DNA of 64,000 nt from positions 3,286,001 through 3,350,000 of the forward strand of contig NZ_JAFBBV010000001.1 in the NCBI RefSeq assembly GCF_016907365.1, read 5' to 3'. Positions 40,209 through 42,184 of this stretch are shown here, one piece after another. The stretch's first letter is position 1, and each line of letters opens with the position of its first letter. Source of the DNA: Oerskovia paurometabola (GTDB taxonomy: Bacteria; Actinomycetota; Actinomycetes; Actinomycetales; Cellulomonadaceae). The position numbers were made by a program, and so were the translations under genes. The notes beneath the pieces are model-generated. The model had not been told where the DNA came from and searched no databases. It saw only the letters and a program-made list of their open reading frames with translations.

Positions 40209-40250
40209 CGAAAGGGCCCGTCCTCACCTCGGTGAGGACGGGCCCTTTCG
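40209..40250. terminator. Convergent terminator between bL37 and rsrA
   Basis: A perfect stem of 19-20 bp closing a CTCG tetraloop, with AAAG/CTTT at its base, lies 48 bases after the bL37 stop. On both strands a few T residues occur in the 3' arm. Likely bidirectional. Confidence 0.8.
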
Positions 40251-40350: not shown

Positions 40351-40674
40351 TCAGATGCCCTCGACGACCGTCGTCGTACGCAGTACGGTGAACTGCGCCT
40401 GGATGCGCAGCCGAAGCTCGACGGGAGCCTGCTCGTGGCACGAGCGGCGCACGAGCTGCTTGACCAGCTCCTCGGCGCTCAGCTCGGCCAGGCACGGCGA
40501 GCAGTGCGCGACGTGCGCACGCATGCGCACCTCGTCGTCGGAGGTCATCTCCGAGTCGAGGTACTCGTAGAGGTGCTTGAGCGCGTGCTCGCACTCGGTC
40601 TCACCCTCGGTCGAGTGGGGGATCGGCACGATGACCTCGTCCTGCGCCTCCGTGCCCACGTTCTGCTGACTCAC
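40351..40674 (-). CDS. rsrA: Zinc-binding anti-sigma factor of the SigR type
   Basis: Redox-sensing anti-sigma factor that holds SigR inactive until thiol oxidation. 107 residues with the ZAS motif H54-x3-C58-x2-C61 (HVAHCSPC) and further cysteines at 28 (ECEHAL) and about 79 (RRSCHEQ); disulfide formation with loss of zinc is the release mechanism in Streptomyces RsrA. The GTG start overlaps the sigR stop (GTGA), so the two are made together. The C-terminus is complete. Actinobacteria with this pair normally use mycothiol. Confidence 0.94.
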
Positions 40675-41339
40675 GACTCACCTCCGGGGGTCTTGGCCCC
40701 CACCAGTCCTCGGTCCTTTGCGTAGTCGCTCAGGAGATCACGCAGCTGGTGCCGACCACGGTGGAGCCGCGACATCACGGTCCCGATCGGCGTGCCCATG
40801 ATCTCGGCGATCTCCTTGTACGGGAAGCCCTCGACGTCCGCGTAGTACACGGCCATCCGGCGGTCCTCCGGCAGCTCCTGGAGAGCCTTCTTCACGTCGG
40901 AGTCCGGGAGCCGGTCCAACGCCTCGGCCTCGGCCGAGCGCAACCCCTGCGACGTGTGCGACGCCGCGCGGTGGATCTGCCAGTCCTCGACGTCCTCTGC
41001 CGCGGACTGCAGCGGCTCGCGCTGCTTCTTGCGGTAGTTGTTGATGAACGTGTTGGTGAGGATCCGGTAGAGCCACGCCTTGAGGTTGGTGTCCGGGCGG
41101 TACTGGTGGAACGCCGCGAACGCCTTGGTGAACGTCTCCTGGACCAGGTCCTCCGCGTCGGTCGGGTTGCGCGTCAGGCGCAGCGCCGCCGAGTAGAGCT
41201 GGTCGAGGTACACCAGCGCGTCGCGCTCGAAGCGCGCCGAACGGGCCGCGTCGTCCTCCGTGGAGGGGGCCCGGTGGGTGTCCTCGGCGTCATCGGCGCC
41301 CGAGAGGTCGCCTGCGCTGCTGCTGATCTGGTCCGTCAT
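40671..41339 (-). CDS. sigR: Thiol-stress ECF sigma factor SigR/SigH
   Basis: ECF-family sigma factor of the oxidative-stress type. The short form is 222 residues with region 2 (about 35-105; [19 protein letters not shown] and [14 protein letters not shown]) and region 4 (about 145-200; [24 protein letters not shown]). The ATG at 41339 has AGGAGG but 16 bases away; a TTG two codons earlier fits that site better. The frame is also open for 49 more codons to a GTG at 41486, next to a SigR-type promoter, so a longer isoform is possible. It is co-translated with rsrA and divergent from ferritin. Confidence 0.94.
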
Positions 41340-41486
41340 CGACAACGAGCCTAGTCCTCCTGCCGGTCGGGTGTCCGCCGAGAGCGCAGAAGGTGCGACC
41401 GCGCCGAACGGCACGACCTCGAGGCTCGGTGCGGCGGGGGCGCTGACGGCCGCTTCCGCTTCCAGTACACATGTCACGCTCAGCAC

Positions 41487-41512
41487 AACCGCCGGGTGCC
41501 CCCTGGCATTCC
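41487..41512 (-). promoter_or_regulatory. SigR-dependent promoter upstream of sigR
   Basis: On the minus strand GGGAAT is followed by exactly 18 bases and GTT, the published SigR consensus GGAAT-N18-GTT. It lies directly upstream of the extended sigR frame, so sigR is probably autoregulated. The transcript would begin at or near in-frame GTG codons (41486 and 41477), giving a leaderless or nearly leaderless message for the longer isoform. Confidence 0.8.
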
Positions 41513-41638: not shown

Positions 41639-42184
41639 ATGACGACCACGACTCCCGACTCCCGGTTCCGCACCCTCCTGCGCGAGCAGGTCGGCCACGA
41701 GCTCGACGCCCATCAGCAGTACATCGCGATCGCCGTGTGGTTCGACGCGCACGACCTGCCCCAGCTCGCCGCGCACTTCTACCGCCAGTCGGTCGAGGAG
41801 CGCAACCACGCCATGATGATCGTCCAGTACCACCTCGACCGTGACCTGGAGATCTCGATCCCCGGCACGGGCGCGGTGCGCAACGACTTCGACTCGGTGC
41901 TCGAGCCTCTCCAGCTCGCGCTCGACCAGGAGAAGCAGGTCACCGACCAGATCGAGGCCATCTTCCGCGCGGCCCGCGAGGAGGGCGACGCCCTGGGCGA
42001 GCAGTTCCTGCTGTGGTTCCTCAAGGAGCAGGTCGAGGAGGTCGCGTCCGCCACGACGCTCCTGACGGTCGCCCGCCGCGCCGGCGAGAACCTGTTCGAC
42101 CTCGAGAACTACGTGGCCCGCGAGACCATCGGGGACGGCGGAGAGTCCGCGGACGCCCCCGAGGCGGCCGGCGGAGCGCTCTGA
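41639..42184 (+). CDS. Ferritin
   Basis: Iron-storage protein of the non-haem bacterial ferritin type, 181 residues. A four-helix bundle carries ferroxidase residues in EQVGHELDAHQQY, SVEERNHAMMI (E and H of the ExxH pair) and the later helix with FLKEQVEE. No haem-ligand methionine pattern of bacterioferritin is evident. A CAGGCGAGCCTG dyad lies at 41565-41576, but it is a weak match to an IdeR box. It is divergent from sigR, a useful place for an oxidative-stress partner, but the two are not shown to be co-regulated. Confidence 0.93.
   Translation: MTTTTPDSRFRTLLREQVGHELDAHQQYIAIAVWFDAHDLPQLAAHFYRQSVEERNHAMMIVQYHLDRDLEISIPGTGAVRNDFDSVLEPLQLALDQEKQVTDQIEAIFRAAREEGDALGEQFLLWFLKEQVEEVASATTLLTVARRAGENLFDLENYVARETIGDGGESADAPEAAGGAL

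Follow-up and report, generated by a model that had tools for sequence, protein, structure and literature searches.

The window analysed here, a 64-kb stretch of a 4.33 Mb genome, carries on its minus strand the genes of a sigma factor of the SigH/SigR type and of its zinc anti-sigma factor. In its short form the sigma factor gene, sigR, encodes 222 aa from an ATG at 41339 (40671..41339); it reaches 346 bits with the SigH/SigR model TIGR02947, whose curated cut-off is 251.55, and is the only one of the 11 matches in the genome to lie above it. The protein is 99% identical to that of Oerskovia douganii and 98% identical to that of O. enterophila, the closest named relatives. The end of sigR is overlapped by rsrA (40351..40674, minus strand), which scores 80.3 bits with the RsrA model TIGR03988 (cut-off 62.5) and contains the motif HVAHCSPC. 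A long GC-rich hairpin, perfect by eye and possibly a terminator, is found 3′ of rsrA at ~40210-40250. On the other side, a ferritin-like gene (41639-42184, plus strand) is divergent from sigR and has its upstream region in common with the sigR promoter p2 described below; its matches to ferritin and bacterioferritin models are weak and stay below cut-off.

A reading of the letters without database searches (hereafter the sequence-only reading) had placed a mismatch-free GGAAT-N18-GTT motif on the minus strand upstream of sigR, and this was borne out at 41512-41487, where a -35 element GGAAT (41508..41512), an 18-nt spacer (41507-41490) and a -10 element GTT (41487..41489) make up the SigR-type promoter p2. 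It is the window's single exact match. Taken bare, the motif is not rare: at least one match occurred in 15 of 100 shuffles of the window (mean 0.15 per 64 kb), and the 25 exact matches in the whole genome, where the reversed motif has none, compare with ~10 expected when the shuffle mean is scaled up. The motif is weak by itself, and it is the comparison across genomes that makes the case for a promoter strong. Among seven Oerskovia the promoter elements and the ~30 bases that follow them are nearly invariant and the spacer is variable; GGGAATG around the -35 element is kept in all seven, and the stretch from CGGTT, at the -10 element, through the CTGGAAGC that follows is identical in all seven, bar one base in one of them (L030). 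At the level of the sequence motif, a SigR-type promoter upstream of sigR is present, exact and conserved.

Downstream of p2 the sigR frame had been described as open for 46-49 codons from GTG codons that touch the -10 element. The frame is indeed free of stops from both 41486 and 41477 into sigR, and both GTG codons are in frame, but they differ in their distance from GTT. The first (41484..41486, 49 codons 5′ of the ATG at 41339) abuts GTT at 0 nt, and the second (41475..41477, 46 codons before that ATG) stands at an offset of +9. In sigma factors of this kind GTT lies at about -12 to -10, so that the second codon falls where +1 is expected. The first, directly after GTT, should sit upstream of the transcript start and is probably untranscribed, so that it is probably no start; it was dropped as the start of a longer SigR on spacing, and GTG 41477 is left as the usable one. 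The predicted transcript start and the putative leaderless start codon thus share 41475..41477, from which a 46-codon N-terminal extension (41340..41477), of equal length and stop-free in the seven Oerskovia, would lead into sigR. The resulting long form, SigR′, would comprise 268 aa (40671..41477), as deduced from the extension, promoter and sigR features.

We compared the start position and frame across the family in a sample of 68 rows, which represent 65 genomes (three entered twice) of 25 genera, here counted as full rows. The exact p2 motif is present in 67 of the 68 rows and in 64 of the 65 genomes. In 23 of the 24 motif-bearing genera all rows carry an RTG codon (ATG or GTG), in frame with sigR, at +8 to +10 from GTT; in the 24th two of three rows do so. 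Timonella (L133/L212), the one genus without the exact motif, reads GAAAT-N18-GTT-N9-GTG, with one mismatch in the -35 element, and is likewise in frame and open, with an extension that begins VTSAILDRS. Removal of identical upstream DNA leaves 59 non-redundant family loci, some family loci, Timonella included, then being counted under the 'named' group. In 45 of the 59 the RTG stands exactly at +9, and in all 45 it is in the sigR frame and open. The extension is as short as 22 and as long as 102 codons among 58 family loci, with the frame kept up to the inner ATG. The exception is L199 (genus g10), in which the frame shifts after an ATG at +10. The stretches before and after the shift are each similar to the extension of the relative L078, and the shift may be either a sequencing error or a genuine loss of SigR′. 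Over all sets, comprising 239 non-redundant loci of which 230 have the motif, an open in-frame RTG at +8 to +10 occurs in 137, as opposed to only 3 in which an RTG in this position is out of frame or closed; random frames would predict about one third in frame. The loci are related and the counts not independent, for which reason we attach no probability to them. Changes in length that almost always preserve the frame would nevertheless be hard to explain without translation of the extension, and translation in the sigR frame is thus supported by the comparison.

The substitutions among the seven Oerskovia, a weaker test than the frame kept over differing lengths, point in the same direction. 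Over the 147-base stretch from GTG 41486 to the ATG, which is of constant length and contains no stop in any of the seven, the variable codons of the sigR frame divide into 10 synonymous and 11 nonsynonymous (21 in total), as compared to 3 and 18 (of 21) and 2 and 20 (of 22) in the other two frames. Third positions account for 14 of the 27 variable columns, a modest excess (p 0.036). Per site, the synonymous difference in the extension amounts to 0.19 between the genome studied here and L030, 0.21 between it and L031 and 0.29 between L030 and L031, with nonsynonymous differences of 0.07, 0.079 and 0.08, respectively; L026, L028 and L029 differ from it at only 1-2 sites in the extension. In the SigR core the comparison with L031 gives 0.13 synonymous and 0.006 nonsynonymous. 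Set beside the 0.079 of the extension, the latter value shows the sigma factor itself to be under much tighter constraint. Judged from these substitutions, the extension is under genuine but loose coding constraint.

It has to be considered whether p2 could be a plain autoregulatory promoter, giving a message with an untranslated 5′ region from which only the short SigR is made at the inner ATG. The inner ATG is conserved, SigR is 98-100% identical in the seven Oerskovia with an extension that is much less constrained, and GC-rich DNA is often stop-free, so that an open frame alone says little. We nevertheless consider this unlikely: it does not account for an RTG at +9 that keeps to the sigR frame in every one of the 45 loci despite widely differing lengths, nor for the overall count of 137 against 3 or for substitutions that are more often synonymous in the sigR frame than in the others. 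Furthermore, none of the 58 family loci has any of eight kinds of Shine-Dalgarno 5-mers at -16 to -5 of the inner ATG, and without a usable Shine-Dalgarno a long leader would translate poorly.

Less probable still, and in our view very improbable, is that SigR′ is made from a leadered message, i.e., from a promoter further upstream with initiation at GTG 41486 or a later codon. An RTG at offset 0 does occur in 14 of the 59 non-redundant family loci, in frame in all of them, and leadered starts are found elsewhere in the class: a permissive test, which asks for a leadered start with a Shine-Dalgarno-like 5-mer at 15-110 nt from GTT, picks out 68 of the 239 loci (25 show neither mode). Offset 0, however, would be inside the promoter, and the common position is +9, which is also the peak at other SigR-type sites of the family. 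At these, among the matches listed, an ATG located 4-18 nt past GTT is most often at +9 (29 of 94 sites, which are not independent as genes are shared among the genomes). This set was obtained from 62 genomes searched, 26 of the 28 with listed matches being used after two overlapping duplicates had been dropped; G021 and G044 were left out, as their many background matches suggest AT-richer DNA. That the stretch after GTT is instead a separate short upstream open reading frame of 60 codons, beginning at ATG 41472 in another frame, is barely credible, for although this ATG is present in all seven Oerskovia and its frame is stop-free over the 147-base stretch, 20 of its 22 variable codons change the residue and an RTG at +14 is found in just 17 of the 59 family loci.

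SigR′ is therefore most likely read from GTG 41477 on a leaderless mRNA. The suggestion of a SigR-type promoter giving a leaderless or nearly leaderless extended SigR is thus supported on comparative grounds, by the conserved promoter, by the frame and by a start codon located where +1 is expected.

The extension itself appears to contain a second promoter. TAGGCT at 41348..41353 (minus strand), a putative SigA-type -10 element of a downstream promoter p1, forms part of a Leu-Gly-Ser stretch of SigR′ and is followed after 8 nt by the inner ATG. A TANNNT box lies exactly 8 nt before the in-frame inner ATG in all 58 leaderless family loci, as TAGGCT in 54 of them, and the same TANNNT-N8-ATG arrangement recurs in every one of the 54 leaderless loci from the named and order sets. 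It is not universal in a wider set, where 78 of 102 leaderless rows have the box when a restricted hexamer list is applied. In 39 of the 58 family loci it reads CTA GGC TCG (Leu-Gly-Ser) in the sigR frame, and as only 1% of the leucines in the family's SigR core are encoded by CTA or TTA, the box would seem to be kept as DNA. A separate downstream promoter for the short form is therefore predicted from the TANNNT-N8-ATG arrangement of these 58 loci.

The box is not confined to sigR. The genome studied here contains 58 pairs of TAGGCT and ATG separated by 3-15 nt, compared to 23 in a reversed control, and their spacing is N6 in 23, N7 in 23 and N8 in 4, sigR being among the last. The pairing resembles a signature that housekeeping promoters of leaderless messages would leave, and its N6 or N7 spacing in 46 of the 58 pairs points to such messages being common in Oerskovia. 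In Mycobacterium smegmatis an ANNNT within -13 to -6 has been described for most promoters, and messages with up to 5 nt ahead of the start codon count as leaderless in the part of that work available (PMC6448022); the N8 spacing of p1 just fits this range. Given the usual N6 or N7, the N8 at sigR may give a leader of 1-2 nt. A spacing of N6 would bring TAG into the sigR frame and stop the extension, which N8 avoids. An AGGAGG lies 16 nt from the inner ATG in the genome studied here, and L031 and L032 carry TGGGGG in its place. The short SigR, starting at ATG 41339, is thus probably made from a message that is leaderless or has a leader of 1-2 nt.

Taken together, we think it very probable that two nested promoters choose between two isoforms of SigR, the stress promoter p2 giving leaderless SigR′ and the SigA-type promoter p1 giving SigR. 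The conserved promoter, the start position and frame, the loose coding constraint and the conserved p1 box are visible in the DNA itself, and we infer the transcript starts, leaderless translation, stress induction and instability. Upon oxidation of RsrA, free SigR would transcribe its own gene from GGAAT-N18-GTT, giving an mRNA whose 5′ end would be at, or a base or two from, GTG 41477 and whose leaderless translation would produce the 268-aa SigR′, 46-residue N-terminal extension included. In unstressed cells RNA polymerase with SigA would use TAGGCT (41353-41348), placing ATG 41339 at +1 or 1-2 nt from it for synthesis of the 222-aa SigR. With no Shine-Dalgarno suitably placed for the inner ATG, ribosomes on the p2 message would make mostly SigR′, and short SigR would be the sole product of the p1 message. 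If Streptomyces is a guide, SigR′ would probably be a rapidly degraded copy that boosts the response before being cleared.

The predicted layout resembles that of sigRp1/sigRp2 in Streptomyces coelicolor in having a SigR-dependent promoter 5′ of a second promoter, an in-frame extension of similar length and an rsrA that overlaps the end of sigR. In Streptomyces, as far as the available text of the reports goes, sigRp2 gives the longer SigR′, which is a Clp substrate through its extension of 55 (PMC4921905) or 58 residues (PMC5472188) and whose ATG lies between the two promoters, and the short SigR uses GTC as its start codon, served by an extensive ribosome-binding site (PMC5472188). In Oerskovia, by contrast, the predicted transcript start coincides with the first codon of the long form, and an ATG 8 nt past TAGGCT, without a usable Shine-Dalgarno, opens the short form. 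The sequence-only reading had assumed the same layout as in Streptomyces; this applies to the promoter and the in-frame extension, but not to the start, which is leadered in Streptomyces, the +9 codon being absent from the named Streptomyces locus (L151) and from the Streptomyces-like family f37 (11 rows, 10 genomes). Nor is there support here for the Clp half of the Streptomyces loop: a search of ~1.5 kb around four clpP-like genes, all of which score below the TIGR00493 cut-off, found no GGAAN-N17-20-GTT in coding-strand orientation, though weaker sites, or sites at other Clp genes, may exist.

Other known systems share single elements of this arrangement. At sigE of Mycobacterium tuberculosis, with promoters P1, P2 and P3, promoter choice also gives N-terminal isoforms, one of them from a leaderless message, although the sigma factor is a different one, the SigH-dependent oxidative-stress promoter P3 gives shorter isoforms and the leaderless start is that of the main form, according to the accessible portions of two accounts (PMC10027907, PMC4921905). 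Mycobacterial SigH and the sigH-rshA pair of Corynebacterium glutamicum represent the same sigma/anti-sigma pair and promoter consensus; in C. glutamicum, however, sigH has four transcript starts with SigA-type boxes, the SigH-dependent promoter precedes rshA, and no extended SigH is described in the available part of the study (PMC3489674). SigH isoforms of differing stability are cited for S. coelicolor and M. tuberculosis in the excerpt available of a further article (PMC10727445). A leaderless SigR′ or leaderless extended SigH was not found in the literature searched, which was seen in part and lies outside most subscription journals. SigR′ as such is known from Streptomyces; the leaderless variant, the nested starts and the recurrent N-terminal motif treated below appear to be new as far as this literature goes. 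Extensions in other actinomycetes may already be listed in the original Streptomyces papers by Kim and colleagues (2009, 2012).

Outside the order the leaderless arrangement is patchy. At class level 148 genomes were searched and 141 matched, and 81 loci of 80 genomes from 32 families were read, 28 of them being the new ones among the best 30 loci and 53 having been hand-picked to cover families. The motif is present in 73 of these 81 rows; 25, spread over 17 families, are leaderless by our test, and 14 of the 25 have the p1 box. The leaderless layout is absent from the six rows of family f22. In a quick tree of 201 rows, made without a shuffle control and including every second family row with a non-duplicate SigR core, 21 changes between leaderless and leadered states were counted among the 170 labelled rows (31 being unlabelled), which suggests repeated switching between the two modes.

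The N-termini of the extensions show a further similarity. Among 137 leaderless extensions [ED]RP occurs 31 times, 20 of these at residues 6-7, and a five-residue form of the N-terminal motif, which in full is approximately M/V-T-x-x-L-E/D-R-P, is found within the first 12 residues in 16 of 137, against a mean of 0.18 and a maximum of 2 in 500 shuffles. Similar N-termini exist in leadered loci (MTAAVLDRPA, VSATCLERPA and MLVCEERPV), the strict form being present in 4 of 68, and that of Oerskovia, VTCVLEAEA, is only a partial match. The motif is therefore recurrent in a minority and not universal, and its role as a turnover signal is a guess.

On this basis a wider reading can be put forward tentatively, one that we judge a little more apt to fail than to hold as a whole, namely that in a large part of the Actinomycetes whether SigR is durable or short-lived is decided by a pair of leaderless starts, nested in one frame. 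In it, the stress promoter would set +1 on a start codon and the housekeeping -10 element would double as sense codons of the extension; the N-terminal motif, in some leaderless and some leadered versions, would act as a turnover signal; and lineages would have switched repeatedly between leaderless and Shine-Dalgarno starts with the N-terminus retained. Should the two nested promoters of the family be borne out, isoform choice in a central actinobacterial thiol-stress switch would depend only on which sigma factor fires, without regulation at a ribosome-binding site, a short N-terminal stretch would be a candidate turnover signal, and annotation of sigR in the family from the inner ATG would miss the stress form.

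There may be further leaderless SigR targets in the family. Of the 24 other SigR-type sites in the genome studied here, two (L014 and L017) have an ATG at +9 and one (L004) at +10; most have no start codon at +9 and none nearby. By eye, the products at L014, L017 and L004 are CoA-binding-like, quinone-oxidoreductase-like and DsbA/FrnE-like, respectively. Exact sites also precede plausible stress genes, among them genes for a ClpB-like protein (L006), an FMN-dependent monooxygenase and a quinone-oxidoreductase-like protein. When 60-residue prefixes of six putative targets were scanned with the ncbifam models, three matched; none of these matches reached its curated cut-off, which is to be expected of prefixes. 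Two of the exact sites in this genome (L023 and L024) lie 3 kb apart on one strand.
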